Shown piece after piece: positions 3-20,940 of a DNA stretch of 20,940 nucleotides. The stretch is taken from the IMG/VR virus record IMGVR_UViG_3300032116_001553, positions 1-20,940 of that record. One strand, written 5' to 3'. The DNA is from a virus. The position numbers and the translations under genes are program-made. Under the pieces are notes generated by a model. It ran no database searches, was not told the DNA's origin, and saw only the letters and a list, made by a program, of their open reading frames with translations. Every line of letters starts with the position of its first letter. The first letter of the stretch is position 1.

Positions 3-269
3 GCAACTTATGCGTGGGCTTTGCGCAAGATGGATGGCCTTGAAGTGGACAAAGCAGGTTTTTGGGATGCACGCACTGGTCATGTAACCACTTGGAGTCT
101 AGAACATCTTGCTACTCAAGAGGTAGAGCATATCTACTCTGAATTTGATAGAGCACGTAAGGCTGAGATATTCTTGCCTAACTTGTCCAACTGTGGACGA
201 TGTGGTGTGCTATCCTACTGTAAGTTTATGAATGGTAAATACACAGAAAAGGAGAAAAACAATGGCTAA
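3..269 (+). CDS. Cas4/RecB-like PD-(D/E)XK exonuclease, C-terminal fragment
   Basis: The reading frame is open from the window's left edge, so the start and the catalytic core lie outside; 88 residues are visible. The end carries a C-x2-C-x5-C cluster (NCGRCGVLSYC, about residues 63-73). This resembles the C-terminal cysteine cluster of Cas4/AddB-like nucleases, which with an upstream cysteine binds a 4Fe-4S cluster. In actinophages a Cas4-family exonuclease often opens the replication block ahead of a helicase and primase, as here. The stop codon overlaps the ATG of the next gene, indicating coupled translation. The family call rests on the cysteine spacing and context only, because the nuclease motifs are not in view; another zinc- or iron-binding protein is possible. 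Confidence 0.55.
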   Translation, partial: ATYAWALRKMDGLEVDKAGFWDARTGHVTTWSLEHLATQEVEHIYSEFDRARKAEIFLPNLSNCGRCGVLSYCKFMNGKYTEKEKNNG

Positions 270-684
270 TGCTAACTTCCAAGTTAGTAGTAAGTTACCA
301 GATGGTCGCATCTTTGTGATTGCTGGTAATACTGCCGATGAGTTCAAGGGTAACTTGACTCAGATATTGGGTGATGTCGGGGCTGAGAATTTAATCTCAA
401 CCATGGCAACATCAGTAGAGGGAGTACCTGCTTCATATGAAGAGGCAGTAGGCAACCTTGCAAAAGGTCTAGGTGCTAGACCAGTATCAAGCCCAACACA
501 AACATTTACACCAAGTACTGGACCATCAGGTCGTTCCTGTAAACATGGTGAGATGACAAAACGTACAGGTGCTGGTGCTAAAGGACCATGGAAAGCGTTC
601 ATGTGTCCATCACCAAAGGGTACTCCAGACCAATGTGAGCCAGCATGGATCCGACGTACTGACTCTGAGTGGAGTACATTTTAA
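262..684 (+). CDS. Conserved phage zinc-ribbon protein, possible ssDNA-binding partner
   Basis: This 140-residue protein starts at ATG 262, chosen because AAAGGAG lies about seven bases upstream; a start 30 bases earlier in the frame lacks this. The N-terminal half (1-70) looks like a small alpha/beta domain. A flexible Ser/Thr/Pro-rich linker follows (about 72-90). The C-terminus holds one Cys-x-His and two cysteines (C93, H95, C115, C125) in a CKHGEM...MCPSPKG...DQCEPAW pattern that I recognise from actinophage replication modules, probably a zinc ribbon. It lies between a Cas4-like nuclease and a RecA-like ATPase, so a role in DNA replication or recombination is inferred. I cannot assign a biochemical activity. 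The stop is three bases before the next start. Confidence 0.75.
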   Translation: MANANFQVSSKLPDGRIFVIAGNTADEFKGNLTQILGDVGAENLISTMATSVEGVPASYEEAVGNLAKGLGARPVSSPTQTFTPSTGPSGRSCKHGEMTKRTGAGAKGPWKAFMCPSPKGTPDQCEPAWIRRTDSEWSTF

Positions 685-1476: not shown

Positions 1477-1688
1477 GTGCTAAGGATATCTGGGAATTAA
1501 AACCAGACTATAAAGAGTCCATGGATATACGTGGTGAATCTACCAAGATATGTCCTTGTGGTTCTTTTGTTTGGAAACTACTCGTCGAATGGGATGACGA
1601 TAGTAATACAATAAGTTCATACTTTATCGATATGGAGTGTGCTGTCTGTGGGACAAAGGCAACAGCCCCAACAGAGGAGAGACTATGA
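1473..1688 (+). CDS. Small zinc-ribbon protein
   Basis: The 71-residue product has two cysteine pairs, C27-P-C29 and C56-x2-C59 (CPCG and CAVCG), separated by a predicted beta-strand pair (FVWKLLVEW and SSYFIDME). That is the layout of a zinc ribbon. It is joined to both neighbours by four-base ATGA overlaps, supporting expression as part of the replication operon. I do not recognise the family; nucleic-acid or protein binding is plausible but not shown. Confidence 0.65.
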   Translation: MSAKDIWELKPDYKESMDIRGESTKICPCGSFVWKLLVEWDDDSNTISSYFIDMECAVCGTKATAPTEERL

Positions 1689-2107
1689 AGAAAAACAACC
1701 TGAAATACATCTTAATGTGTTTTGTGGTCTTTGCGGGTACTTGGCATCAACCTGCGGCTGCGTCTATTACGGACGTAACCCGTATGAACCCGATCTGTAA
1801 AGACTTAAATTTGACAATTAGTCAAAGTAAAAAACTCGCTAAGAAATATGCATTTATGAAAGTAAAGCAAGTAGGTTGGAATGACCGAGAGTGGAAAGCA
1901 TTACTCACTCTTTGGACTAAAGAATCTCGCTGGGATTACACAGCAGATAACCCAAAGTCATCAGCGTATGGCATACCCCAAATGCTCAATATGCCTGAGG
2001 ATACACCCTTAACCAAACAAGTTGATTTAGGGCTGAAGTATATAAAAAAGCGGTATAAAACGCCTACTTTAGCGCTTCATCATCATGATAGAAAAGGCTG
2101 GTACTAA
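1685..2107 (+). CDS. Secreted lysozyme-fold lytic transglycosylase
   Basis: The start at ATG 1685 overlaps the previous stop (ATGA) and follows GAGGAGA; an upstream in-frame start at 1637 would bury the signal peptide. The 140-residue protein begins with a signal peptide: MKKNNLK, a hydrophobic stretch (8-19), and a likely signal-peptidase site after AAA near residue 27. The mature part has LWTKESRWDY (76-85), with E80 as the likely catalytic glutamate, and SSAYGIPQM (92-100). This is the SLT/resuscitation-promoting-factor-like pattern of actinobacterial transglycosylases (typically W..ESgW...A.NP.SgAyGi.Q). It would cut peptidoglycan outside the membrane. Its place within a replication operon is odd; it may be an endolysin exported by the host Sec pathway. 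The protein is short and may lack a separate cell-wall-binding domain. Confidence 0.8.
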   Translation: MKKNNLKYILMCFVVFAGTWHQPAAASITDVTRMNPICKDLNLTISQSKKLAKKYAFMKVKQVGWNDREWKALLTLWTKESRWDYTADNPKSSAYGIPQMLNMPEDTPLTKQVDLGLKYIKKRYKTPTLALHHHDRKGWY

Positions 2108-4533: not shown

Positions 4534-5270
4534 GTAAAGCAATAGTCGTGGTCTCAGATTTGCAGGCACCGTTTCATGATGTAGATGCGGTGAATGCACT
4601 CAAGAAATTTATCTATGCCTATCAACCAGATTCAGTAGTATCGGTTGGAGATGAAATAGATTTCCAAAGTATCAGTCGTTGGGCAAAGGGGACTGAACTT
4701 GAGTGGGAAAGATCAATAGGTAAAGATAGAGACACAACTGTTAAGTTACTAGAAGATTTAACTATTGATACCATTGTACGTAGCAACCATTCAGACAGGT
4801 TGTTCAACAAGATACGCTCATCTGCTCCTGGATTCTTAGGATTGCCAGAGTTAGAGATTGAAAAGTTTCTTAAGTTAGATGACTTAGGTATCACTTACTA
4901 TCATGGACCTGTAGAGATAGCCCCAGGTTGGCTTCTTATGCATGGTGATGAGGGTAATGTGCAACCAACAGCAGGTGCTACTGCTCTCGGACTTGCAAAG
5001 AGAAGTGGTATGTCTGTCGTGTGTGGACACACTCATCGTATGGGACTGGCTCATTACACTCAGGCTTGGGCTAATGGTTCTCGTGCTATATGGGGTATGG
5101 AAGTTGGACATCTCATGAATATTAAGCATGCAAAATATATTAAAGCAGGACTATTCACTTGGCAACAAGGGTTTGGTATCTTGCATGTGGATGGTAAAAA
5201 TGTAACTCCCCAAATTGTGCCTATTGTTAAAAATAGTTTCACGGTTGAGGGCAAGACATGGCGATGGTAA
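4530..5270 (+). CDS. Calcineurin-like metallophosphoesterase
   Basis: The 246-residue protein shows the calcineurin-like metal-binding series: VVSDLQAPFH (7-16, with Gln in place of the first His of DxH), VGDEID (39-44), RSNHSDR (84-90, the GNH(D/E)-like motif), LMHGD (136-140) and CGHTHR (165-170). It would hydrolyse a phosphomonoester or phosphodiester with two metal ions; the substrate is not evident. In phage replication modules such enzymes are often annotated as DNA-repair or Mre11-like nucleases, but it lacks the extra domains of Mre11/SbcD. The DxQ substitution also occurs in other phage members. The start overlaps the HNH stop, and the end overlaps the sigma-factor start by 13 bases. 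Confidence 0.82.
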   Translation: MSKAIVVVSDLQAPFHDVDAVNALKKFIYAYQPDSVVSVGDEIDFQSISRWAKGTELEWERSIGKDRDTTVKLLEDLTIDTIVRSNHSDRLFNKIRSSAPGFLGLPELEIEKFLKLDDLGITYYHGPVEIAPGWLLMHGDEGNVQPTAGATALGLAKRSGMSVVCGHTHRMGLAHYTQAWANGSRAIWGMEVGHLMNIKHAKYIKAGLFTWQQGFGILHVDGKNVTPQIVPIVKNSFTVEGKTWRW

Positions 5271-5962
5271 AAAGATTTATCGAAGAGTATGAAGGCGTAG
5301 TTTCATCTATTGCCTATGAGTTCTCTCGTAAGTATCGCATGGTAGATGTTGATGACTTACGTCAGGAGTTATGGCTATGGTTTCTTACGCATCCAAACAA
5401 AGTTAAGTACTGGCATGATTCACATGACAGCAAGCAATCCACCAAACTCGTTGCACGCTCATTACGTAATGCCGCCAAAGATTACTGTCAGAAAGAGAAG
5501 GCTAAGTCGGTTGGATTCCGTGTAGAGGATAACTATTATTACGATAAAAACATGCTAGAATCGCTGATTCCTGCTGTTTTAACGGGTAATCGTGAGGCTC
5601 CTGTCATGAATGATTTGAGTGTGACTAACGTAAAAAAGGTTGCATCTGAGGGCAATAACTGGCCTGCAATCTGCTCTGATATTGAGAAAGCAATTAGTAA
5701 ATTAAACAAGGAACAGCGAGATATTGTAATCTTGCGATACGCAAGCGGACTTGAGTTAGGCGCAATAGCCTCAGAGTTATCTATCTCGCAAGATGCTGTA
5801 CGCATGCGTGTAAATAGAGCATTAAAAAGTATGTTAAATTTTCTTGGTGGTAACTATCCACGCAAGGAAAGAGATTTTACTGAGGAAGAAGTAAGCGTGA
5901 GTGTGGAAACTGAGTTAATAAACGAGGAAATCACGGAGGACACAATAGATGAGGACGTGTGA
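5258..5962 (+). CDS. Sigma-70-family RNA polymerase sigma factor
   Basis: The 234-residue protein contains a region-2-like part: helix 6-24, DVDDLRQELWLWFL (30-43), then a helix with SLRNAAKDYCQKEKA (68-82). Its C-terminal region 4 is textbook: AISKLNKEQRDIVILRYASGL (145-165) followed by the helix-turn-helix AIASELSISQDAVRMRVNRALKSM (169-192). It would direct host RNA polymerase to phage promoters, probably for the late genes. The tail beyond 200 is acidic. Two ATGs (5258 and 5264) are possible starts; GAGGG lies just upstream. Region 2 is divergent, so which promoter it reads cannot be told. It could also act on region-4 interactions with the WhiB protein encoded on the other strand. Confidence 0.82.
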   Translation: MAMVKRFIEEYEGVVSSIAYEFSRKYRMVDVDDLRQELWLWFLTHPNKVKYWHDSHDSKQSTKLVARSLRNAAKDYCQKEKAKSVGFRVEDNYYYDKNMLESLIPAVLTGNREAPVMNDLSVTNVKKVASEGNNWPAICSDIEKAISKLNKEQRDIVILRYASGLELGAIASELSISQDAVRMRVNRALKSMLNFLGGNYPRKERDFTEEEVSVSVETELINEEITEDTIDEDV

Positions 5963-6035: not shown

Positions 6036-6199
6036 TACACGTGATCTGTAGTCCATGTCAGCAGGGTGGCACTATGAATTCGTATGGGCGTGAGGATTTA
6101 GCACACGAAAGACACAGCGTTTGTGAATACGCAGATTGCGTGTGCCAGCATAAGGTCGGTAATTGGGTAATAAAAAAACCCCCACGCAAGGAGTCGTGA
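6032..6199 (+). CDS. Small Cys/His-rich zinc-binding protein
   Basis: Reading from GTG 6032 (GTGA overlap with the previous stop) gives 55 residues; GTG 6041 is an alternative start giving 52. The product has CSPC near the N-terminus and HERHSVCEYADCVCQH further on. That resembles the small C..C...H..C....C.CQH proteins common in actinobacteria and their phages, which probably bind zinc. The last codons overlap the left arm and loop of the operon terminator (6176-6209). The gene has no ATG start, so confidence is moderate. Confidence 0.5.
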   Translation: MIHVICSPCQQGGTMNSYGREDLAHERHSVCEYADCVCQHKVGNWVIKKPPRKES

Positions 6200-6370: not shown

Positions 6371-6552
6371 TAGTCTATCCTCTCTACCTCTAGTACACGC
6401 TTGACTTCGGCTTCGTCTAGCGAATAAACGTTCCACTCATTAACTGCATCGAGGGCTAAGTACACGGCTCTCTCCACGTCATCACACGTTATGTCTTGAT
6501 AGACACTAACCATGCACTTAGCCTTTACTCGATAGGTATGTAAATCACTCAT
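6370..6552 (-). CDS. Hypothetical small alpha/beta protein
   Basis: This 60-residue protein has YRVKAKCMVSVYQDITCDDVERAV, a helix with ALDAVNEWNVY, and ends EVKRVLEVERID. The strand-helix-strand plan (an edge strand, a helix starting after a DD/ED pair, a final strand) resembles small phage proteins of unknown role. A good AAGAAGGGTGGA site precedes the ATG. Its start overlaps the end of the zinc-ribbon gene by eight bases and its stop overlaps the next ATG. Function is unknown. Confidence 0.6.
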   Translation of the reverse strand: MSDLHTYRVKAKCMVSVYQDITCDDVERAVYLALDAVNEWNVYSLDEAEVKRVLEVERID

Positions 6553-6670
6553 TTATTCCACCCTTCTTTACGTAGCAAGCATGGCACGCAGGGATATTAT
6601 CCTGTATGCCAGCCTCTCGCTGGCGCTTACAATATCTACACATCATAGCGCCACCGAAAGTATTGCGCAT
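6545..6670 (-). CDS. 41-residue zinc-ribbon protein
   Basis: The product has two Cys-x2-Cys pairs, MCRYCKRQ (10-17) and ACHACYV (28-34), the signature of a minimal zinc ribbon. ATG 6670 follows AGGAG by four bases. An alternative start at ATG 6646, which overlaps the previous stop (ATGA), would give 33 residues beginning MMCRYC. Overlaps with both neighbours support expression. It may bind nucleic acid or another protein. Confidence 0.55.
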   Translation of the reverse strand: MRNTFGGAMMCRYCKRQREAGIQDNIPACHACYVKKGGINE

Positions 6671-6762
6671 AAAACTCCTAGCGTGGTGAAAGATATCCAC
6701 GCTATTATACGCAACTGTTCCCACACAGTTTCCTGTGTGAACTCATCATTATTGTAGTTCAT
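6643..6762 (-). CDS. 39-residue single-span membrane protein
   Basis: A polar, acidic N-terminus (MNYNNDEFTQETVWEQ) is followed by one hydrophobic span (about residues 17-39, IIAWISFTTLGVLCAILSVAL). The start overlaps the WhiB stop by 14 bases and the stop overlaps an in-frame ATG of the zinc-ribbon gene. The ribosome-binding site is weak (GAGTGGG). A short perfect hairpin (CACACAG-TTTC-CTGTGTG, 6722-6739) lies inside the coding region. It could be a membrane anchor or a lysis/exclusion peptide; nothing decides. Confidence 0.45.
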   Translation of the reverse strand: MNYNNDEFTQETVWEQLRIIAWISFTTLGVLCAILSVAL

Positions 6763-7126
6763 TTTCCCACTCATCTCTATCGTGTATTCTAGGCACGATG
6801 TTTATATCTAGTGGATTATCATACGTGAAAGTCAAACTTGTTGTTTGTATATTTCTCGCACGTTGTTCCTCTCTACGCTCATACGTATCTAGGTTTGCCC
6901 ATATACCTACGAGATCAGTCCATTGTAAGGAATACTCTAAACACTCCTCATACGCAGGACAGTTTAAGCATGTATTTCTTGCACGCATGGCGCTAGGTGT
7001 GTATGAGTATCTATGACGGATACCCTTCCTATCACCACGCACAAGATCAAACTCAGGGAACCAATCATCAGGTGTGTCTGAGTTTGTACACAATGGTTCG
7101 TTCTTGAACTTAGGAAAGAAACTCAC
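6749..7126 (-). CDS. whiB-like: WhiB-family iron-sulfur transcription regulator
   Basis: The protein has the four WhiB cysteines: one in EPLCTN, then NTCLNCPAYEEC (C-x2-C-x5-C). These are followed by VGIWANLDTYERREEQR, matching the G(V/I)W-G/x turn and basic C-terminus of the family. D/W/F residues after the first cysteine (DDWFPEF) are also typical. WhiB proteins bind a 4Fe-4S cluster and contact region 4 of the main sigma factor; known phage members, such as mycobacteriophage TM4 gp49, interfere with host WhiB2. I chose GTG 7126, which makes a GTGA overlap and follows AAAGGCGG, giving 125 residues. ATG 7165, adding 13 residues, is the alternative. The C-terminal 40 residues beyond the core are unusual. 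WhiB is confined to actinobacteria and their phages, which sets the host range. Confidence 0.9.
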   Translation of the reverse strand: MSFFPKFKNEPLCTNSDTPDDWFPEFDLVRGDRKGIRHRYSYTPSAMRARNTCLNCPAYEECLEYSLQWTDLVGIWANLDTYERREEQRARNIQTTSLTFTYDNPLDINIVPRIHDRDEWENELQ

Positions 7127-7467
7127 AGCATACCGCCTTTCATTAGGAATACACGGAACGAACATTTAGCATCATCTCCCACACATGGGGCATGACGCTC
7201 AGCACCACACGAAGCACAAGGGTACTCGTATGGATTATCTATATCGAACTTATCGCTAGGCAGAGGAGAGTACCTAGCGCTAGTCCTATCTGTGCTTGGT
7301 GAGTAAGTTATCTTCACACGTATCGGGCCATCAATTTCCCAGCCTTCCTCGATGTGAAAATACTCGCCAGCATTAAGCATGATGGTTGCGGTTTGGTTGC
7401 CTGTGCGAGTAGTTTTCCACTCGACATTATCCCAATCACACACCTTCTTGCGTAGTGTAGTAGCCAC
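7123..7467 (-). CDS. Hypothetical protein with C-terminal zinc finger
   Basis: The 114-residue protein starts at GTG 7467. The first 75 residues look beta-rich (ATIMLNAGEYFHI, PIRVKITYSP). The C-terminus has C84-x2-C87, C95 and C102 (PCASCGAERHAPCVGDDAKC). This resembles the actinobacterial zinc-finger domain usually written CPxCGAxPGxPC...H, found at protein ends. The frame overlaps the gene before it by 32 bases and the WhiB start by four. Function is unknown; nucleic-acid binding is plausible. Confidence 0.6.
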   Translation of the reverse strand: MATTLRKKVCDWDNVEWKTTRTGNQTATIMLNAGEYFHIEEGWEIDGPIRVKITYSPSTDRTSARYSPLPSDKFDIDNPYEYPCASCGAERHAPCVGDDAKCSFRVFLMKGGML

Positions 7468-7597
7468 TTAACACCCCAATCTTGGACATGCCACACGAGT
7501 AGCAGTAGTTTCTTTCCACGTTGTAATCGTGTACGGGTACCCATATAGGTACATCACACTTGTAGCAACGTGTGTCTATGCACTTAGCGGTTCTCAT
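7436..7597 (-). CDS. 53-residue zinc-ribbon protein
   Basis: From ATG 7597 (AAGGAG eight bases upstream) the product has C11-x2-C14 and C32-x2-C35 (RCYKCDVP and YCYSCGMS), a zinc-ribbon layout, plus C6. The residues between (IWVPVHDYNVER) fit the beta hairpin. The start overlaps the previous gene's stop by 14 bases. I do not recognise a specific family. Confidence 0.6.
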   Translation of the reverse strand: MRTAKCIDTRCYKCDVPIWVPVHDYNVERNYCYSCGMSKIGVLSGYYTTQEGV

Positions 7598-7778
7598 TTT
7601 CCAACTCCTTCTCGTGTCCGATTTGTCCAGCCTTCTCACGATAGGTGTGCGCCTTGAGTAGCCACCTGCTGGCGTCCACCATGTTGCGCTTACCTATCGC
7701 TATTTCGTAGTGCTTGTAGCACATTTCAGCCATGCTTGCGTGTGCCCTTGCTGGTGGTTGCTTTGCTATGCGTTTCAT
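7584..7778 (-). CDS. Hypothetical helical protein
   Basis: The start at ATG 7778 overlaps the glutamine amidotransferase stop (TAATG) and follows a G-rich stretch; an earlier in-frame ATG at 7790 lacks a ribosome-binding site. The 64-residue protein is basic and predicted to be mostly helical (SMAEMCYKHYEIAIGKRNMVDASRWLLKAHTYREKAGQIG), with a TPR-like single helical hairpin. Its direct coupling to the amidotransferase suggests a partner role, but this is inference from position only. Confidence 0.55.
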   Translation of the reverse strand: MKRIAKQPPARAHASMAEMCYKHYEIAIGKRNMVDASRWLLKAHTYREKAGQIGHEKELENENR

Positions 7779-8605
7779 TATAGCCCCCATGCGTTTGAGT
7801 GTGTACTGTCAGGCAGTTTGGTGGTTGGCTTGTAGCACATGCAAGTTTCTGTGTGCATATCACACCATTGACACGTTAGACACATTGGACATATTGCGTC
7901 CTTCTCTAGCCTGTCCTCGTCAATGAGTGCATAGCAACCTACACATGGGAACACACCTTCCGTTTGAGTGCTGTAATGATCGTACGAAGGGTAGAAACTA
8001 TCGTACGCTTGACTGGGCATCCAGCGTGAGTAGCCGTAGTCAGCCTTGCAACTATCGTTTGACCACCACACTTTGCTCTCGTCCTCTGCACCCTTGTCTG
8101 AGTGTAAGAGATACATTTGATACTCAGCACGTGGGTCAACTGTGAGTATGCACAACTTGGAACCTGACGTGTACTCCTCGATCATGTTGTACATGTGAGG
8201 ATTATCAAGCGCCTTAACACCGCCCATTGGGGCGAGTACGTCCTCGGTAAAGATACGTGTGTCAGAACGTGTATCACCTGCTGGAATATCTATCGGTAAT
8301 ACGCCATTGTGTGCCAGCACAGTTTGGTTATCTACCACGTAAAACGGGTGGCAGTTAGCAAGATTGGTTGTGCCATGTGTGGCATAGCGAGCATGCCATA
8401 GTGCGTAATCATCGGGATACTTTGCACGCATCTCGAGAAAACGATTGACAGCATCGTCAGGGTTCATCGTGTGTTCCACGATGATGCGCTTCTCGCTGGA
8501 TACAACGATTGCGAAGCCGAAGCCGTCAGGATTATTTATCGCAGAGTAAGTTAACTTCTCTCTCGATGGTAGTACGTTGGGTGGAACTACGCATAACATA
8601 CACAT
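7778..8605 (-). CDS. Class II (Ntn) glutamine amidotransferase with C-terminal zinc cluster
   Basis: The 275-residue protein begins Met-Cys, so removal of Met would expose the nucleophile Cys of a class II amidotransferase. Further motifs fit that family: NPDGFGFA (25-32), LWHARYATHGTTNLANCHPF (69-88) and LAHNGVL (97-103). It would release ammonia from glutamine. After about residue 215 comes a cysteine-rich tail (C221-x2-C224, C239-x2-C242, C245-x2-C248, C255-x-C257), probably zinc ribbons and not usual for stand-alone enzymes. No synthetase domain is fused. The adjacent amidoligase, overlapping by TAATG, is the obvious acceptor of the ammonia or partner in making an amide bond. GAGGAG precedes the start. 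Confidence 0.85.
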   Translation of the reverse strand: MCMLCVVPPNVLPSREKLTYSAINNPDGFGFAIVVSSEKRIIVEHTMNPDDAVNRFLEMRAKYPDDYALWHARYATHGTTNLANCHPFYVVDNQTVLAHNGVLPIDIPAGDTRSDTRIFTEDVLAPMGGVKALDNPHMYNMIEEYTSGSKLCILTVDPRAEYQMYLLHSDKGAEDESKVWWSNDSCKADYGYSRWMPSQAYDSFYPSYDHYSTQTEGVFPCVGCYALIDEDRLEKDAICPMCLTCQWCDMHTETCMCYKPTTKLPDSTHSNAWGL

Positions 8606-10149
8606 TAGTTATTCTCCTCGTCTATGTGTGATGATGGTACTAGCGGTTTGTCGAGTGAACTTAGTGCGACTTGCACGAAGTTTGAGTACTTGGCTTGATT
8701 GTCTAACACGTAAGCCATGAAGCGTATCCATGAGAACTGCTTATCTCTTGGGTTAATTTTCATGGTACGTGTGTACTCAATGGCAGAGTGGATAAACTCT
8801 ACCGCAGATAAGACACGCTCTTTCTTGAGTGAGCCTTTGAACACTCTGATTTCGAGTGTGTGATCGTTTTGTATGTTGATTGCTTCATACCTATCAGCCG
8901 ATTGTCCGTGCTTGACCTTAGGTACTAGGTGCCCTTTGTCCATAAACCTTGCGTATGAACTTGAGCGACCTGCTATTGCACACACTTGAGCGCTGTTATC
9001 GTAAACAAGTTTTTGGAAGCGTAGTTCGTGTGCCTCGTTATGCTTGCCGTCTTTACGAAACGCTGTGCGAGATACGTGAACATGTAAGCCACATGTATCT
9101 GTATCCCATGAACGGAAACCTTTGTTGCGTAGGACACGCAAGAAGTTCCAGTTTAGTTTTTGTACTTCCTCGAGTGAGTGTGGGTGAGATACAATCTCGA
9201 AGCCGTCATTGAGTGAGCCATCATGCTTACAATACACTCGAGTTCCGAGTGTTTCATACACGATCTCTGCACCTGCGCCACAAGACCAGTTGTCCTTATC
9301 CTCAACCTCTAACTCGATACCGAAGTAGTAGTCATCGTGCCCGTAGAATACAGGGGTTGGCTTGTACGAGTAATCGTAGATACCTGAACTATCACGATAA
9401 CACTCGTGATCGTCCATGTAATCCTCGTTTGTCATGTATCCACACTCATTACACTCGACTTCCTCGTCATAGCACTCACGACATAGATCACGCTGGCGCC
9501 AATCTGAGTAAAAGGTTTCATCGAAGTAATGAGCGCAGTTATCGCATGAGTGTACATCATCTGCATCTGAGCAGATAATCGCACAATCTCCGCATATCTG
9601 ACGACCATTGTAGTAATACGCACTATAACGCCTGTTAGAAATAAACACTTCATGGCACATATTACACGAGAACGAGCATGACTTATGGATTAAGACAGGC
9701 TCATTGGTTGTGGAACTGCTGTGTGCATACGTAGACTCTATCAACCTACGTGCTACAAAATCACCTTCTTGGAAAATAAATTCACCACAAGTACACATTG
9801 TACGTTCCGATGTGTCTTGCGGAAAACTTCCGAGAGGCATGAGTGTGTCTATCGAGCAGTTATTGTACACGCTGGATATAACGTTGTCGTTATTTACTAC
9901 GAACGTACGTATGCAACGCTGACATTTGCTCACAACCAGCACGTTGCCGTAGCGTGAGTAAGAGTAAAACCTGCCACTCCTACCGCAATCGCAAGTTCCC
10001 CAACCTGTGTGATGAAGTACGATGCTGTGGATAGCGACAATTTGCTCTTGTGGAAGCGAGGCATACCAATCATGAGTGGATACTTCCTCGTGATAGTATG
10101 CGCTGAACGTACCTTGCGGTATCTCTGGGGGTACCTGTGTGCTAGGCAT
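8605..10149 (-). CDS. Amidoligase (COOH-NH2 ligase) with cysteine-rich N-terminal half
   Basis: The C-terminal half of this 514-residue protein matches the amidoligase family (Amidoligase_2). Motifs are FGIELEVE (276-283), KHDGSL (308-313), EIVSHP (318-323), CGLHVHVS (353-360), RYEAIN (420-425) and TLEIRVFKGSL (431-441). This glutamine-synthetase-like fold uses ATP to couple a carboxylate to an amine. The N-terminal half (about 50-250) carries at least eight cysteine pairs (for example C76/C79, C162/C165, C186/C189, C202/C205, C223/C226, C233/C236), suggesting several zinc ribbons or LIM/RING-like units that may bind a protein substrate. The substrate is unknown. Links between amidoligases and class II amidotransferases, including in phages, have been described in comparative genomics. 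GGAAG precedes the start. Confidence 0.85.
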   Translation of the reverse strand: MPSTQVPPEIPQGTFSAYYHEEVSTHDWYASLPQEQIVAIHSIVLHHTGWGTCDCGRSGRFYSYSRYGNVLVVSKCQRCIRTFVVNNDNVISSVYNNCSIDTLMPLGSFPQDTSERTMCTCGEFIFQEGDFVARRLIESTYAHSSSTTNEPVLIHKSCSFSCNMCHEVFISNRRYSAYYYNGRQICGDCAIICSDADDVHSCDNCAHYFDETFYSDWRQRDLCRECYDEEVECNECGYMTNEDYMDDHECYRDSSGIYDYSYKPTPVFYGHDDYYFGIELEVEDKDNWSCGAGAEIVYETLGTRVYCKHDGSLNDGFEIVSHPHSLEEVQKLNWNFLRVLRNKGFRSWDTDTCGLHVHVSRTAFRKDGKHNEAHELRFQKLVYDNSAQVCAIAGRSSSYARFMDKGHLVPKVKHGQSADRYEAINIQNDHTLEIRVFKGSLKKERVLSAVEFIHSAIEYTRTMKINPRDKQFSWIRFMAYVLDNQAKYSNFVQVALSSLDKPLVPSSHIDEENN

Positions 10150-10321
10150 GGGCTTCCTTTCTCTTGTCTGTGTGTTTCATGTCGCAAACTGCGCATAGAA
10201 ACGAGTACATACCATCGTCAGCGTAGCGAGTGATTACCGCCCACAACCCTTTGATTGGGGCGTGATAATCACAATCCGTACACTTGAACAGGAACTTTGG
10301 TGCTTTGTTGAGCCTGCTCAT
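10142..10321 (-). CDS. 59-residue zinc-ribbon protein
   Basis: The product has C14-x2-C17 (KCTDCDYHAP) and C43-x2-C46 (LCAVCDMKH) with a central strand region (GLWAVITRYADDGMYSF), a classic zinc ribbon. ATG 10321 lies two bases after the previous stop. The stop overlaps the amidoligase ATG by eight bases, so the two are likely translated together. Function is unknown; the association with the amidoligase is positional. Confidence 0.6.
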   Translation of the reverse strand: MSRLNKAPKFLFKCTDCDYHAPIKGLWAVITRYADDGMYSFLCAVCDMKHTDKRKEAHA

Positions 10322-10323
10322 GG

Positions 10324-10458
10324 CTACTTCTTGCCTGCTCTTAACTCACGTACTTGACGTGTGAGCCGAGCATTTTGTAGTGCGGTGGTGGTGATGAGCG
10401 TGATACTTAGGGACAAGGCGATGATTACCGCTATGCCGTCTGTTATCTCGATATACAT
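10324..10458 (-). CDS. 44-residue single-span membrane protein, first gene of minus operon
   Basis: The product has one hydrophobic span (about residues 9-27, IAVIIALSLSITLITTTAL) followed by a basic tail with a short helix (NARLTRQVRELRAGKK), predicted N-out/C-in. AAAGGA lies six bases before ATG 10458. It is the first gene after the promoter and leader at 10459-10591. It could anchor the modification enzymes at the membrane, but there is no direct evidence. Confidence 0.6.
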   Translation of the reverse strand: MYIEITDGIAVIIALSLSITLITTTALQNARLTRQVRELRAGKK

Positions 10459-10479
10459 GTGGTTCCTTTCGTGATGATA

Positions 10480-10556
10480 AAGAAACCCTCTCAAGCCTAC
10501 GAAGGAAATGAACTAACCTCGCCTGAGAGAGTTTCTTGGTAGTCTTTTGACCACCG
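10480..10556 (-). promoter_or_regulatory. Leader RNA with 5' hairpin and terminator-like (attenuator) hairpin
   Basis: Read on the minus strand, transcription from the promoter at 10563-10591 would begin near 10556. The RNA would open with a 7-bp hairpin (GGTGGTC-AAAA-GACTACC, 10555-10538, one G-U pair). A 14-bp stem with one mismatch follows (10537-10524 with 10493-10480, 30-base loop), its 3' arm running into TTTCTTTAT. The ribosome-binding site of the first gene comes right after. This layout fits a transcription attenuator or a leader that controls the operon. No known riboswitch consensus was recognised. Confidence 0.5.
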
Positions 10557-10562
10557 AAAACC

Positions 10563-10591
10563 ATCATAGCAGATCAGTTTTTCAGCATCAA
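10563..10591 (-). promoter_or_regulatory. Extended -10 sigma-70 promoter of the minus operon
   Basis: On the minus strand TTGATG (10591-10586) and TATGAT (10568-10563) are separated by exactly 17 bases, and a TGC precedes the -10 box (extended -10). This is 4/6 and 5/6 to the consensus. The predicted start is near 10556, which coincides with the first base of the leader hairpin. Confidence 0.6.
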
Positions 10592-10684
10592 AAAGCCCCA
10601 AAGAAAGAAAGAAACCTGTACGTATGATAGAAAATCTAATCAAAAGCAGGTTGCAAACGAGGGCGTGTGCGTGCTTGAGCATGG

Positions 10685-10769
10685 GACAGCAAGGTATGTA
10701 GTGCGTGTACGTGCGAGATTTCGGCTGCATGTGCGTGTGTACGACAGCGATGTATGTAGCACGTGTGCG
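10685..10769 (+). repeat. Imperfect 27-base direct repeat, two copies
   Basis: Copies at 10685-10711 and 10743-10769 agree at 22 of 27 positions. Both start GACAGC and share GTATGTAG and CGTGT. They are 58 bases apart. A shorter related word (GACAGCAAGATATGTA) occurs at 5961-5976, one base different from 10685-10700. Confidence 0.55.
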
Positions 10770-10779
10770 CTCAGGAGTA

Positions 10780-10886
10780 TCCGTAAATACGGACAAATCG
10801 GACAGTACGCTCACCACGGATAGGGCAGATCATCACCAACACAAACCAAAGCCACCGAATAGAAACGGACAAACTAGGACAAATCG
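10780..10886 (+). repeat. GGACAAA iteron-like repeats and a small inverted repeat
   Basis: GGACAAATCG occurs exactly at 10791-10800 and 10877-10886. GGACAAAC lies at 10867-10874 and GGACAG at 10800-10805. The first copy abuts a perfect inverted repeat TCCGTA-AA-TACGGA (10780-10793). Such clustered short words are typical of binding sites for a replication initiator or repressor. Confidence 0.5.
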
Positions 10887-15478: not shown

Positions 15479-16048
15479 ATGACTGCAATTGTAGGGATTC
15501 AAGGTAAAGGTTGGGCTGTTTTAGCAGCAGACTCTATGACTACGTATACAGATAAACCTTATGTAGCCAAGGGATGCGACAAGATAGTTAAAGTTGGTGA
15601 GTATTTAGTAGCAGTTGCAGGTGATGCAACCGCTGGTGATGTACTTTACAACGTTTGGCAGCCACCTAAAGTAATTAAAACTCAAGAACCTGATCGTTTT
15701 ATGATGATTAGAGTACTTCCCTCTATAAGACAAGTACTCACAGAAGCAGGATATGACCCAAATCCTAAGAATAACAAAGATGAAGATGCTGGTTGGGATG
15801 CTTTAATTTGTTTTAATGGAAAAATATACCAAGTTAGTGATGATTATGGGTATATGCGTGATGATAAAGGTTTATACGGTATAGGTTCTGGTGGTTCCAT
15901 AGCACTTGGTGCTCTAGCAGTAATGGATAATGAAACTAAGACCCACGCTAAAGCGTCATCTGCCGCTAAAAAAGCAGTTAATGTTGCAATTCAATATAAC
16001 ATCTGGTGCGGTGGACCAGTTAATGTAAAAACACAGTTTACTAAATAG
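15479..16048 (+). CDS. HslV/20S-proteasome-like Ntn hydrolase, candidate prohead protease
   Basis: The 189-residue protein begins Met-Thr, so Met removal would expose a catalytic Thr1. AVLAADSMTTY gives Asp17 in processed numbering, KGCDKIVKV has a Lys near position 33-34, and AVAGDATAGD matches the G-F-A-G-x-x-A-D turn. GIGSGGSIALGAL matches the GSGG...AlaA motif of HslV and proteasome beta subunits. These are the Ntn-peptidase residues. It sits directly after the portal, where a capsid-maturation protease is expected, and no other protease is visible between portal and window end. A role in prohead maturation is therefore inferred. Alternatively it might degrade host or phage proteins. TAGGGG precedes the start. 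Confidence 0.8.
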   Translation: MTAIVGIQGKGWAVLAADSMTTYTDKPYVAKGCDKIVKVGEYLVAVAGDATAGDVLYNVWQPPKVIKTQEPDRFMMIRVLPSIRQVLTEAGYDPNPKNNKDEDAGWDALICFNGKIYQVSDDYGYMRDDKGLYGIGSGGSIALGALAVMDNETKTHAKASSAAKKAVNVAIQYNIWCGGPVNVKTQFTK

Positions 16049-16056
16049 GAGATATT

Positions 16057-16506
16057 ATGGTGAGAGAAGTTATAAGCGGAGTTGGCGCAGATGCCAAACG
16101 TGTTGATTTGAATAACTCCAACAAAGTGACTGAACGTGTAAAAAAATTACAAAGAGATGCAAAGATTCAGAACGCTACAGGCGGAACTTATAGCCAGGCT
16201 AGTCAATTACAAGACTTAGCATCAGGTGCTTCAACTGAAATGCCTCAGGCTGTAGTTGGTGCTACTCCTAATCCTAGAACTATTGCTTCAAGCATACGTA
16301 TGTCTTCATTAGATCAGATGAATGAGAACCCAGGCCCTATTACTGATGGTGCTCCTGGAAATACTCCTGGACGTCAACCTGAAGAATTACCTGGTCCTGT
16401 TGATGGACCTGACAACAACGCTATTCTAGCCCGTGCTATGTTCATGATGGATCCAACTCCTATGAACCGCAGATTATTAGAGTCATTCCTTCAAGAAGGT
16501 CGTTAA
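16057..16506 (+). CDS. Hypothetical virion-module protein, Pro/Asn/Gly-rich
   Basis: The 149-residue protein starts after a strong AGGAGATATT. Residues 20-50 include a short charged helix (KVTERVKKLQRDAKIQ). The middle (60-125) is low-complexity, rich in Pro, Gly, Asn and Ser, and probably disordered. The C-terminus (ILARAMFMMDPTPMNRRLLESFLQ) is a helical hook. Between the protease-like gene and a giant protein it could be a scaffold, head-tail linker or protease target, but no family is recognised. The stop overlaps the next ATG (TAATG). Confidence 0.65.
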   Translation: MVREVISGVGADAKRVDLNNSNKVTERVKKLQRDAKIQNATGGTYSQASQLQDLASGASTEMPQAVVGATPNPRTIASSIRMSSLDQMNENPGPITDGAPGNTPGRQPEELPGPVDGPDNNAILARAMFMMDPTPMNRRLLESFLQEGR

Positions 16507-19500
16507 TGTCAATAGTAGATCCTCTGGTATCTTCTTGGAACAAGTATAAATATACAAGTTTATTTGATACAGATACACGAACAGGTAATTTATCTACCCT
16601 TGTAGATCAACAATTATCTGGTCTTGACCCTGCCGTAATACAAAATTATAATTCGCTTTTAGCAAAGTTTCCTAATCAAAGTAAAGACTACCTTCTTAGT
16701 GCTGCTAAGATTGGTTTAAATTCAACATCTAAAGGTATTGAAAAACTATCAGCAAACGATGGTATCAATCAGTTAAAGCAAGACTTAATTAACGTTGATA
16801 GCATTAAGAGTGAGGCTGAAAAGAATAAAGGTTTTAGACAGGGCGTTTACAGCGTTTTAAAAGGTGTTACTCGCGCTGGATTTGCTACAATACAATCACC
16901 TTATCAGTACATCTCTAACGTAGGTAGAAATATCTATGCTAAGGCTAAAGGCGAGATTAGTACAGGACAGTTAATTAGTAATGTTTCTCTAAGTGAACTT
17001 TACGGAGAAGAAACTAATTTAGGACAACTTCTACGTGCAACTGCTGGTGCAGTTACTGGTAAAGGTCCAATTGATACTGGTTCTGGATTCTTTGTTGCTC
17101 CTGAGAGCAAGGTAGGCGCTGCACAGGCTAAGGCTATGTCCGCTTATGGACGTGTAAATGGTAAATCATTTACTATAGGCCGTGCATCTATGAATGTTTT
17201 AGGTGCTGATCCAAACAGTACTCCTTATCGTGTAATGTCAGGTATCGTTGATGGCGTACTTGCTGTCGGTACAGATCCAACTCTATGGGTTGGCCCTGGT
17301 TCTGTAACTAAAATTATCCAAGGTGGTAAAGAATTACAGAAAGCCAAGACTGCTGCTCAAGCAGTTCTTGATGAAGTGGATGCTGCAAAAGCAGCAGATA
17401 TTAAGAATTTAAGTAAGCAAGAAAAACAATTAATTAAAGAACGTGTAGGTAGTGAAAAGAAAGTACGTCGTACTTTAGATAACTCTTACATGAGGGCTGA
17501 AAGAGAATTAACTAAGACTCAACAGTCTAAGAGTAATGCTATAATTAAGAAATTAGAGAAAGCATTAACTGTTGGATTCTCTCGTGGTACAAGAGTAGAG
17601 GGTGACCCAGAGGTTGTCGCTGCTATTGCAGATGGAAGTATTGGCGATTTCGTAACTGCTGAACTTGCTGCAAAGAAACCACAAGGTGTTATTGATTCTA
17701 TTGCTCAATTAGAAGCAGATCAAATTAACACAGGCGAAGCATTCGTTGGTATCTTTACTGAAGACCTTCCTAAACCTGGAAAGTTACAATTCGGTGCATA
17801 TACGGACAAAGAGTACATTCTTACTGGTTCAAGTAAAGAGCCTCTAGATGTATATGACATATCTAAGACCTATAAAGGCGCAACTCAAGACGAGATAATT
17901 GAAGAGTCTGCTAGACGTGCTAATTTCTGGGATGAATTACAAGGTGAACTTCGTAATCCTGAGATTAGTGATGATTTAAGAAAATCATTAAATGCTTATG
18001 TTACAAAAGGTGCTGAGGGTAAACTTGGTCCTAAAGCATCTATGGATGATATTCTTTCTAATGCTGGAGCCGAGAGTGTTGCCACTCTTATGGCCAGAGC
18101 ACTTGCAAGTAAAAATGAAGAATTAATAATAACTGTATCTAACGCTATTGAAAATAGTTGGGTAGCAGATGCTTATAGCAACGTCCGTGCTATCAATGGT
18201 GGTATGGGTGGAGTTGTAATTAAGAATGGTGAAAAGGTCGGAGCACGCAGAGTAGGTGTTACTGACACTATTACATCATTAACTGGTGATGCAGCCATGG
18301 GTACTAAACTAGGTGCTAAACTAGTTGAATCTATTAAGAGTGCTCAAGATGAAATTTTAGAGGCAAACGCCGCTTTAGAAAGTGCCAAAGCAGCACGTGC
18401 TGGCATTGATGGTAAGTTAAAAGAAATTGAAGTATTACGTGACTATGCTGCACAAGATCCAGAGTTAGTTGCTCAGATACTAAATGATCCTGAGAACATT
18501 GGTATTGCCAAACTTATGGGTCTTGAAATGGACATTGCAGATACTCAGTATCTAAAAGAGTTCTATAGATCTGAAGTTGGATTAGTTGATGGCTTTGGTG
18601 GCGGAGCAAAAGGTGATTTAAATAAGGCTGCTACATATTTGCTAGGAAAACGCTTTGCTCAAGTAGCAGAGGTTGTAGCAAAAGAGACAGACTTCTCTCG
18701 CTTACATAGATTATTTGGCCGTAAATTAGATGCCGAGATGACCAAGGAATTGGTTACTGCAACTACAAGTGATGATGTAATATCTATATTCTTAAAGCAC
18801 TTAGCAGCACCTACATCTGATCCAAAGGTATTCCGATCTTTAGCCCTTAGGGGAGAAGCAGCAAAGTTAGCCAATAGTCCTGTATTTAAAGTTGTTCCAT
18901 CTATTGCTACTAAAGCAATTACTCAGGTGGAAAAAATTGAAAGAGGGTTTGGTCGTTACTTTACCCAATCTGTAGTATTACCTCTTGATGATATTGATAG
19001 ACTTGTAAATGGTATGGAAGACTGGATGTCTTCTGCTGGTATTTCAGATGAGATCATATCAACTACAATTAATAGAATTGCTGCTGCACCTTCCGTAAGA
19101 GAACGCTCTGGTATTGTATTTCAAGAAATTGAAAATGCTCAGGTCGCAATAGCAAATAAACTTGCACCTAACGATGAAGAACTTGCTAGCGCAGTACGTG
19201 ATGCATTCCGTGCTACTGGCAGAGAAAATGCTATTATCAAACAATATGTTGCTGAGAAACTAGCAAAAGGTGAACTTCCATCTCTTGATGGAGTATTCAT
19301 AAATGGACAATTAACTACCCATACGTTTGCTGGTGACCAGGCTATATTTGAATATCAATTCCTAGATGATGTAATTAGATTACCTGATACTAGAGATATT
19401 AAGAAACTTATAAGCAAATATAATGATAATAAAATTAAATATGGTGCTAAAAATGCTTTAGATAACTTTAATGCTGTAATTGGCGATAATTGGAGAACTG

Positions 19501-20940
19501 CTCAACTAGCATTCCGTGTTGCATATATCATGCGTAACATTGGTGAAATGCAGTTCCGTCAATATTTTTCTGGGCATGATTCATTATTTAATCATCCACT
19601 AGGTTATATAGCAATGATTGCTGGTAGTCAAGATGGCGGTAAGGTTAGACAATTACTTGGTAAGATGTCTAAATACGGTAATGATGTCAACGGTAATAAA
19701 CTTATAGGCAAAGATGCAGAAATAAATGCATCAATTTCTGAGGCCGTGGAAGAACACTTTAACTTTCTTGCTAGAAATCATAACTCAGGTGATCCAAGAT
19801 TTGCATTTGTAGGTAAAATATATGAAGCAATTGGTATTGAAAGTGATAAATACCACGTTGGTTTATCTAATACTTTAATTCGTGCTTACTCTGATAGACT
19901 TATACCATTAGTTGCTAACTATGCTGGCGGTCCAGAAGATGATTTAGTTCGTCTTTTAGTTGAAGGTAAAGGCGAGAAGTTTGCTGGCATATTAGAAGAT
20001 TTAGTAAATGGTGGCAGAAACGGTGTTACATCAGGTGACTTTGCTACTCTATTCTTAAGAGACCAAAAGAAAGTAGAAGGAAGATATAATCTTTCTCCTG
20101 ATAATATAATTGCAGAAAACGTAAAGACTTACTTATTTGATGCTGAATCTACAGGTTCTGTAGCACGTTATGTTAATAACGTTATTGGAACTGGCGCTAA
20201 GTCAGTAGATATGCGTAGACTTCTTGCTGATGGTCAAGTTATTGTAAATGGTAAGAAAATTGAGATTCCTTCTTACAAGAAGGTTGGAAACATTAATGAC
20301 TTTGCTGACGAAGACGGTGCATTTAAGACCCTTATAGCCCGTAATTTTCCTAGAGAAGATATGACTGGTTCTACAGTTATCCATGTACGTGATAAAAGAT
20401 TTGGTCAACTTGAAGGAAAGTTTTTACTTGAGGCAGTAGAGAAATTCTTTGATATTTCTACTAAGGTAGAAAACGTAGTTAACTTTTCTCCTGAATTCCG
20501 CATGTCGTACTGGGACCATGTAGGCCGTTATGTAGGTATGATTAATGACTCTGCTTTAAAGTCTTTATTAGTTAATGCCCAGAAGTCGTTGGCACCTTTA
20601 ACTGTAAATGGAAAAAGCATAAGCATTCGCCGTCATCCATCACTACGTGCTATTAACAAAGAAATTGCTGCCCGTAAAAAGGGCAAGTCAGTTACTGATG
20701 GAATTGACCTAGAAACAATGAATTCTATGGCTGCTAAACAAGCATCTAAGTATACTAAAGATTTATTCTACGATGCATCTAAGCAACGCCAATATGCTAA
20801 TGCAATGAGAATTATATTCCCATTCGCACAGGCACAGTTCAATACTATGTACAAGTGGAGTCAACTCCTAAAGGATAATCCTGTACAGTTCTATAAACTA
20901 GGCCGTGCTTACAATGCATTAACTCAACCAGGCTCTAGTG
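16506..20940 (+). CDS. Giant virion-associated protein, truncated by window end
   Basis: From ATG 16506 (TAATG overlap; GAAGG seven bases upstream) the frame stays open to the window edge, giving at least 1478 residues. I read it through by eye and found no in-frame stop. Long Glu/Lys-rich coiled-coil stretches occur around residues 272-355 and 608-645. Glycine-rich and hydrophobic segments lie near 115-150, and a hydrophobic helical segment (IIFPFAQAQFNTMYKW) near 1435-1450. No catalytic motif was recognised. Position after the portal and this size suggest a large internal or ejected virion protein, as in some podoviruses, or a large polyvalent protein. Codon use matches its neighbours. Confidence 0.8.
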   Translation, partial: MSIVDPLVSSWNKYKYTSLFDTDTRTGNLSTLVDQQLSGLDPAVIQNYNSLLAKFPNQSKDYLLSAAKIGLNSTSKGIEKLSANDGINQLKQDLINVDSIKSEAEKNKGFRQGVYSVLKGVTRAGFATIQSPYQYISNVGRNIYAKAKGEISTGQLISNVSLSELYGEETNLGQLLRATAGAVTGKGPIDTGSGFFVAPESKVGAAQAKAMSAYGRVNGKSFTIGRASMNVLGADPNSTPYRVMSGIVDGVLAVGTDPTLWVGPGSVTKIIQGGKELQKAKTAAQAVLDEVDAAKAADIKNLSKQEKQLIKERVGSEKKVRRTLDNSYMRAERELTKTQQSKSNAIIKKLEKALTVGFSRGTRVEGDPEVVAAIADGSIGDFVTAELAAKKPQGVIDSIAQLEADQINTGEAFVGIFTEDLPKPGKLQFGAYTDKEYILTGSSKEPLDVYDISKTYKGATQDEIIEESARRANFWDELQGELRNPEISDDLRKSLNAYVTKGAEGKLGPKASMDDILSNAGAESVATLMARALASKNEELIITVSNAIENSWVADAYSNVRAINGGMGGVVIKNGEKVGARRVGVTDTITSLTGDAAMGTKLGAKLVESIKSAQDEILEANAALESAKAARAGIDGKLKEIEVLRDYAAQDPELVAQILNDPENIGIAKLMGLEMDIADTQYLKEFYRSEVGLVDGFGGGAKGDLNKAATYLLGKRFAQVAEVVAKETDFSRLHRLFGRKLDAEMTKELVTATTSDDVISIFLKHLAAPTSDPKVFRSLALRGEAAKLANSPVFKVVPSIATKAITQVEKIERGFGRYFTQSVVLPLDDIDRLVNGMEDWMSSAGISDEIISTTINRIAAAPSVRERSGIVFQEIENAQVAIANKLAPNDEELASAVRDAFRATGRENAIIKQYVAEKLAKGELPSLDGVFINGQLTTHTFAGDQAIFEYQFLDDVIRLPDTRDIKKLISKYNDNKIKYGAKNALDNFNAVIGDNWRTAQLAFRVAYIMRNIGEMQFRQYFSGHDSLFNHPLGYIAMIAGSQDGGKVRQLLGKMSKYGNDVNGNKLIGKDAEINASISEAVEEHFNFLARNHNSGDPRFAFVGKIYEAIGIESDKYHVGLSNTLIRAYSDRLIPLVANYAGGPEDDLVRLLVEGKGEKFAGILEDLVNGGRNGVTSGDFATLFLRDQKKVEGRYNLSPDNIIAENVKTYLFDAESTGSVARYVNNVIGTGAKSVDMRRLLADGQVIVNGKKIEIPSYKKVGNINDFADEDGAFKTLIARNFPREDMTGSTVIHVRDKRFGQLEGKFLLEAVEKFFDISTKVENVVNFSPEFRMSYWDHVGRYVGMINDSALKSLLVNAQKSLAPLTVNGKSISIRRHPSLRAINKEIAARKKGKSVTDGIDLETMNSMAAKQASKYTKDLFYDASKQRQYANAMRIIFPFAQAQFNTMYKWSQLLKDNPVQFYKLGRAYNALTQPGSS

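Follow-up and report, generated by a model that had tools for sequence, protein, structure and literature searches.

The stretch of viral DNA analysed here is the IMG/VR record IMGVR_UViG_3300032116_001553 in full (20,940 bases, hereafter the window), and its subject is a pair of adjacent genes that encode an amidoligase (AL) and a class II glutamine amidotransferase (GAT). The window comes from a tailed phage, as is evident from the terminase, portal, helicase and WhiB homologues identified in it with Pfam and PHROGs. An initial annotation, made from the sequence before any database search, had placed the pair on two open reading frames (ORFs) of the minus strand, and both ORFs were confirmed, with the following features:

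8605..10149, minus strand: AL, 514 amino acids, with a cysteine-rich N-terminal half and a glutamine synthetase-like catalytic domain (PF12224, PHROG 16683)
9400..9993, minus strand: cysteine arm, AL residues 53-250, with 18 conserved cysteines (from cysteine conservation and LIM matches)
8635..9342, minus strand: predicted catalytic domain of the glutamine synthetase/glutamate-cysteine ligase (GS/GCS) fold, AL residues 270-505 (from a 56-sequence alignment and VIA-align)
7778..8605, minus strand: GAT, class II glutamine amidotransferase, 275 amino acids (PF13230, PHROG 25883 and fold matches)
7835..7945, minus strand: cysteine tail at the C terminus of GAT (residues 221-257), of the pattern CxxC...CxxCxxCxxC...CxC (from CxxC counts)

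The family assignments proposed in the initial annotation were borne out by profile searches. AL matched the Pfam family Amidoligase_2 (PF12224) with an E value of 4.5e-7 (30.4 bits, cut-off 22), and GAT matched GATase_4 (PF13230) with an E value of 1.4e-7 (31.2 bits, cut-off 23) as well as PF13522 (E 1.7e-6). At E <= 0.1, Amidoligase_2 was matched by 56 of 56 AL homologues and GATase_4 by 35 of 35 GAT homologues. The best PHROGs, 16683 for AL (E 3.4e-41) and 25883 for GAT (E 5.3e-38), are both annotated as of unknown function.

The catalytic motifs of both proteins were found to be intact, as had been claimed. In the alignment of 56 AL sequences, residues E279, E281, D310, E318, G354, H356, H358, R395, E433 and R435 are invariant, and R420 is kept in at least 90%. 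The AL motifs run in the order ExE, D..G.E, GxHxH, R and ExR, which we take to be the order of glutamine synthetase, with the metal- and phosphate-binding roles of these residues assigned by motif correspondence. Among 35 GAT sequences, H71, R73, T76, H86, H99, N100, G101 and D115 are invariant and C2 is kept in at least 90%, and the protein has the features of a class II enzyme, namely the N-terminal cysteine, the arginine, the HNG motif and the aspartate of the glutamine pocket. Cys2 is expected to become the nucleophile after removal of the initiator methionine; the sole GAT in our survey without MC near its start, that of locus L075, reads MVCMLC. Both genes are under purifying selection, with ratios of nonsynonymous to synonymous substitution rates (dN/dS) of 0.18-0.33 for AL and 0.09-0.17 for GAT relative to four IMG/VR relatives, for the two more distant of which dS exceeds 1.

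Structure prediction of the 514-residue AL, using 56 sequences, gave a model with a mean pLDDT of 88.3 and a pTM of 0.58. It was aligned by VIA-align to 1tt4 with Z 12.6 (root-mean-square deviation 3.9, 214 residues aligned), to YbdK (1r8g) with Z 12.5 and to glutamine synthetases with Z 12.0, and Foldseek concurred, its best match being 1r8g (E 3.1e-6). Since these matches span residues 270-514, it is the C-terminal half of AL that is predicted to adopt a glutamine synthetase fold. The GAT model (mean pLDDT 80.8) matched GFAT/GlmS, EgtC and PurF.

The translational coupling that had been described is present: the AL stop codon TAA and the GAT start codon ATG overlap at base 8605 (TAATG), and the sequence GAGGAG lies just upstream of the GAT start. 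The recurrence of this arrangement was evaluated in a neighbourhood survey of the best 80 of 528 confirmed viral matches and the best 80 of 472 bacterial or archaeal genome matches. In all 79 viral loci with DNA downstream of AL (locus L025 is cut), a GAT was found there at a distance of no more than 60 bp, which agrees with the expectation that the two genes would be neighbours in related phages. Five genome loci are cut; of the other 75, each of which offers 700 bp or more downstream or contains a GAT, 62 have the GAT within 60 bp and 11 have it at a greater distance of up to about 0.7 kb, for a total of 73. When the loci were grouped into clusters at 70% identity, GAT adjoined AL in 25 of 25 viral clusters and in 37 of 38 informative genome clusters. 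None of the three outcomes that the initial annotation had named as telling against its reading (no profile match for either enzyme, loss of catalytic residues, genes lying apart in related phages) was observed.

The pair is also present in distant phages: mycobacteriophage Marvin, MEP402, a Manatee Spring podovirus and two faecal contigs, and among MEP402-type relatives it was found in all 16 with DNA downstream; one locus of this set, L178 (136-2203), has the reversed order, with GAT before AL. The neighbourhood survey relied on a GAT profile built from eight GATs, those of the window and of the named phage records; the hits of this profile in those phages are therefore by construction, and the independent evidence for their GATs is a Pfam or NCBIfam match or the annotation of the record. 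Three records of mycobacterial plasmids were found, and both of the two examined carry the pair. These are L212 (3875-5573) on a large plasmid of Mycobacteroides abscessus and L213 (3851-5523) on a large plasmid of Mycobacterium intracellulare, in each of which both proteins have cysteine modules. The annotated starts of the two plasmid GATs appear too short and miss the N-terminal cysteine, and an upstream in-frame ATG restores MC in both.

The genome loci are mostly contigs of Clostridia (Oscillospiraceae, Ruminococcus), and a resolvase, integrase, relaxase or DUF5906-type cluster was found in 60 of the 80; therefore, most of them are probably mobile elements. Their GATs are only 15-26% identical to that of the window, yet the pairing with AL persists. 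When the 45 largest BLAST clusters among neighbouring ORFs (at least 60 amino acids) were compared, only the AL and GAT clusters were shared between viral and genome loci, and no third gene was common to both; the commonest other clusters were WhiB, confined to viral loci, and a resolvase, present in 37 of 80 genome loci and in no viral locus. A scan with the protein of L136 confirmed no relative. The pair is not specific to phages, as it is also carried by plasmids and by probable bacterial mobile elements.

The N-terminal half of AL is as cysteine-rich as had been noted, with 24 cysteines in the whole protein and 18 of them in a conserved pattern between residues 53 and 250. We read this pattern as about five zinc-finger-like groups (53/55/76/79; 119/121/158; 162/165/186/189; 202/205/223/226; 233/236/250). 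Among 74 viral full-length ALs, which include close copies of the window, 14 of the arm cysteines align in all 74, with 13 kept in 74 and C205 in 68; the other four (C53, C55, C76 and C79) are aligned in only 61 of the 74 and kept in 60 or 61. Where the catalytic core could be placed in full-length ALs, at least five CxxC motifs lie ahead of it in 73 of 73 viral and 77 of 78 genome proteins. The remainder of the arm is much more variable: in 10 of 13 listed relatives (the three nearest being set aside), the arm is 15-49% identical to that of the window, compared to 50-74% for the catalytic part. Such fast divergence around retained cysteines is what a scaffolded binding arm would be expected to show.

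The zinc ribbons of the initial annotation fared less uniformly. The Pfam LIM family (PF00412) was matched at E <= 0.1 by 18 of 56 AL homologues, the best E value being 1.8e-8, though not by the AL of the window itself. When ten genome-set ALs were scanned singly, LIM was matched at E <= 0.1 in eight and above the cut-off of 22.9 in two, and a profile search of the PDB with AL returned LIM and other zinc-finger matches that were weak (best E 0.0019). We infer from these patterns that the arm would bind zinc. The extra zinc clusters that the initial annotation had noted in AL are not peculiar to this phage; the cysteine arm is, to judge from the sequences, a trait of a wide AL family. We rejected the idea that the cysteine-rich half is a chance feature of the window phage, because its 18 cysteines are kept in homologues and the CxxC arm is family-wide.

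The GAT tail is distributed differently. Two or more CxxC motifs after residue 180 were found in 77 of 79 viral GATs versus 1 of 75 genome GATs, and a tail like that of the window GAT is present in Marvin gp106 and in the two mycobacterial plasmid GATs. The Clostridia GAT that was tested matched other PHROGs than the window GAT.

Taken together, we consider it moderately probable that the two genes encode one two-subunit, glutamine-dependent, amide-forming enzyme in which the zinc arm serves as a docking device. In this model, the N-terminal cysteine of GAT would strip ammonia from glutamine; the glutamine synthetase-like domain of AL, with ATP and metal, would convert a carboxylate of the target to an acyl phosphate; and the ammonia would attack the acyl phosphate to yield a carboxamide. 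The target may be held by the LIM-like fingers of the AL arm, joined in phages by the GAT cysteine tail, and these elements may also, or instead, hold each other. The basis of this model is computed: the families, the predicted fold, the intact motifs, purifying selection and near-universal adjacency in the sampled loci. Formation of a complex, passage of ammonia between the subunits and binding of the target by the arm are what we infer in addition. Phage and bacterial-element loci have no third neighbour in common, and for this reason we consider a host-derived target (a protein or the carboxylate of a cell-wall peptide) likelier than one that an adjacent gene encodes. The reading of the initial annotation, a glutamine-fed modification of a protein, peptide or cell-envelope component, is supported in part, through its family assignments, motifs, coupling and conserved neighbourhood, whereas the chemistry itself is predicted. 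The module thus appears to be real and conserved and, judging by its motifs, apparently active.

Several observations weigh against this two-subunit enzyme. A profile-profile comparison of AL with glutamine synthetase (hhalign) gave no alignment, with a probability of about 1% or less, and therefore the mapping of AL residues rests on motif order and predicted fold. A search for a fused AL-GAT ORF found none, and the physical association of the two proteins is for this reason putative. Cysteine-armed ALs with no nearby GAT were found in two Oscillospiraceae contigs, L124 (5767-6945) and L157 (1485-2534), and the AL of Clostridioides difficile phage AR1086-1 has no GAT within about 5 kb. The surveyed loci lean to close relatives. 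The pair of Acinetobacter phage vB_AciJM_313 is weak by Pfam, with AL at 19.8 bits, below the cut-off, and no match for GAT. Lastly, no biochemistry of the AL-GAT family was found in the accessible literature.

The main chemical rival is a ligase paired with a gamma-glutamyl hydrolase, following an EgtA/EgtC-like logic, in which AL would add glutamate (as a gamma-glutamyl amide) or another amino acid and an EgtC-like GAT would remove the gamma-glutamyl group, such that a tag is made and trimmed. The structural matches of AL include YbdK (which we take to be a gamma-glutamyl-cysteine ligase homologue), gamma-glutamyl-methylamide synthetase and plant glutamate-cysteine ligase, and the residues of GAT that hold glutamine would equally hold a gamma-glutamyl substrate. 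It is because EgtC is also among the structural matches of the GAT model that this rival is retained, and the GAT of MEP402 weakly matches EgtC in sequence as well (E 0.045, far below the cut-off). However, GAT sequences match mainly GlmS and PurF, which are true amidotransferases (though far below the NCBIfam cut-offs), and the window GAT has no EgtC match at E <= 1. We regard the ligase/hydrolase pair as unlikely.

The main rival for purpose, which is compatible with the chemistry of the two-subunit enzyme, is amidation or crosslinking of peptidoglycan stem peptides by the pair, which would bar the entry of competing phages or elements. Such a role has been proposed for phiEco32-type amidoligases by papers citing Iyer et al., as given in PMC5498523, and PMC10580990 connects the superinfection idea to the pair of the OM43 phages; exclusion would also suit phages and conjugative elements alike. 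On the other side, two genes of the phiEco32/LUZ24 cassette, COOH-NH2_lig (PF14395) and GGACT (PF06094), were each found in 0 of 16 window relatives, in 0 of 1 window record and in 0 of 4 other paired phages, whereas both positive controls (LUZ24 and phiEco32) were detected for each family; as the window and its relatives are possibly incomplete genomes, these absences are to be read with that reserve. AIG2_2 (PF13772) was likewise found in 0 of 16 relatives, the actual family of the LUZ24 protein being PF06094. No signal peptide was obvious on inspection by eye, and the zinc arm would suggest an intracellular macromolecular target. We regard cell-wall exclusion as a rather doubtful purpose. 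Modification of DNA, in which the pair would amidate a carboxylated base in the DNA of the element and the zinc arm would bind DNA, is by comparison very improbable. Zinc fingers can bind DNA, and class II GATase domains are known from the 7-deazaguanine pathways of phages. This role is weakened by the absence of thymidylate synthase (PF00303) and QueC (PF06508) from 16 of 16 relatives, the controls being positive and other base-modifying families not being searched.

Returning to the glutamine-dependent enzyme, the pair is common to phages of Mycobacterium, Methylophilales and, on weaker evidence, Acinetobacter, to mycobacterial plasmids and to mobile elements of Clostridia, and such wide sharing implies a role that is useful to very different parasitic DNAs. 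We offer, as a tentative proposal that may well prove wrong, that the pair is an amidation machine of mobile elements, in which a fast-evolving LIM-like arm would dock on a host protein or wall precursor whose carboxylate would be converted to a carboxamide by the glutaminase-fed ligase, serving phages, plasmids and conjugative elements in host take-over, exclusion or counter-defence. If true, this would add a new means of altering host proteins or the wall, namely a protein-amidating enzyme whose docking arm can change, and a laboratory system exists in phage Marvin and M. smegmatis.

The pair lies within a compact cluster of minus-strand genes that extends from 10494 to 6218 and includes the following features:

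10324..10494, minus strand: 56-amino acid peptide with a hydrophobic stretch, the first conserved gene of the operon (87-95% identity and dN/dS 0.10-0.24 in four relatives)
7584..7790, minus strand: conserved 68-amino acid protein of unknown function, next after GAT (95.6% identity and dN/dS 0.08 in L020; no match in L021)
7436..7639, minus strand: 67-amino acid protein with CxxC pairs, start uncertain (97% in L020, dN/dS 0.02)
7123..7467, minus strand: 114-amino acid protein with a CxxC motif (dN/dS 0.04-0.20 in L019-L021; no match in L023)
6749..7165, minus strand: WhiB-like protein (PF02467, E 3.7e-9)
6177..6195, minus strand: terminator-like hairpin and T run that follow the final ORF of the cluster (motif scan)

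The twelve-gene operon of the initial annotation was broadly upheld, with two exceptions: none of the four relatives tested matched gene 10142-10321, and a full-length match to gene 6545-6724 was confined to the closest of them. The WhiB-like gene and those with left-hand coordinates 10324, 7584, 7436, 7123, 6643, 6370 and 6218 are constrained in at least some of the four relatives; stop codons lie within the match for 6218 in L020 and for 7436 in L023. The WhiB cluster (representative L070, PF02467 E 7.5e-12) is present in 52 of the 80 viral loci and in none of the 80 genome loci. Upstream, gene 10497-10817 is doubtful (dN/dS 0.56-0.78), and a promoter-like site was found at 10591-10563 on the minus strand. 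Promoter-like sites are not commoner than chance (10 found versus 9.6 expected in shuffles), and in a scan of the region 7 terminator-like sites were found versus 4.4 expected.

Elsewhere, a whole-window megablast matched two records, over a single short stretch. Among terminase relatives whose host is recorded, Streptomyces phages come closest (45%), which makes an actinobacterial host likely; two records that give no host reach 57%. On the plus strand, 15479-16048 encodes an HslV/proteasome-like protein (PF00227 E 2.8e-8; PHROG 1040 E 7.3e-29) directly after the portal gene, the expected place of a head maturation protease, and 16506-20939 is a giant ORF of at least 1478 amino acids that continues past the window end and matches PHROG 10618 (function unknown, E 2.9e-7) only at residues 1388-1474. 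Also on the plus strand, 5258-5962 has a sigma-70 region 4 domain (E 2.8e-11) and is a possible phage sigma-like factor; its cluster is present in 48 of 80 viral loci, and the cluster representative matches sigma-70 region 4 below the cut-off. A transglycosylase-like protein is encoded amid replication genes at 1637-2107 (plus strand; PHROG 12661 E 5.3e-18), and a weak match to class II ribonucleoside reductase lies at 232-684 (plus strand; PHROG 364 E 2.5e-8).

Amidoligase/GATase pairs in phages are already in print. In PMC10580990, MEP401, MEP402 and more than 30 related genomes are stated to carry an amidoligase and a GATase, called auxiliary metabolic genes, with citation of the Marvin paper and, for phiEco32, the cell wall and superinfection, of Iyer et al. 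2009. Other papers describe a seven-gene peptidoglycan cassette (PMC5498523), list an amidoligase and a GATase in LUZ24-like phages (PMC3890496, PMC3517423) and amidoligases in Clostridium prophages (PMC11318856), and, in a C. difficile island, place an amidoligase beside a GGCT-like gene. Our searches found no known substrate for the AL-GAT pair, and PADLOC-DB 2.0.0 (E <= 0.1) returned no families for six of six proteins (AL and GAT of the window, Marvin and L136).

LUZ24 resembles the window in that an Amidoligase_2 protein adjoins a class II GATase (the gp18/gp19 pair), but its AL has only 4 cysteines and lacks such an arm, and the phiEco32/LUZ24 cassette adds a COOH-NH2 ligase and GGACT that were not found in the window type. 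LUZ24 gp21 is annotated as RimK-like and has no Pfam match. Membership of the window pair in this cassette was rejected on the basis of PF14395 and PF06094; the ATP-grasp (RimK-like) member was not searched for. In the OM43 phages MEP401 and MEP402, AL and GAT are adjacent as in the window, with a 10-base overlap in MEP402, whereas the AL of MEP402 is longer and less cysteine-rich (548 amino acids, 12 cysteines) and the phage belongs to the Zobellviridae and infects a marine proteobacterium. The Clostridia and other genome pairs (L097-L176) share with the window a cysteine arm (partly LIM-matching) joined to Amidoligase_2 and an adjoining GAT, but the GAT is of another subtype, in which the double-CxxC tail is missing in 74 of 75, and the neighbours are resolvase, integrase, relaxase, DUF3846 and DUF960 genes.

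Marvin gp105-gp106 (cluster S) has the gene order of the window, the N-terminal cysteine module of AL and the C-terminal cysteine tail of GAT, and the homologous mycobacterial plasmid pairs have the same order and cysteine modules in both proteins. Cluster S phages are about 27-31% identical to the window in AL and 35% in GAT; Marvin differs in having fewer cysteines in gp105 (12) and 79 bp between the genes. Marvin gp105 (JF704100.1, L002 4612-5973) is labelled 'glutamine amidotransferase domain protein', yet it is the amidoligase, and such a label is on the AL gene in 18 of the 19 mycobacteriophage records listed. Relative to these known systems, the new part is the zinc-armed two-gene form, with its spread over phages, plasmids and chromosomal mobile elements.

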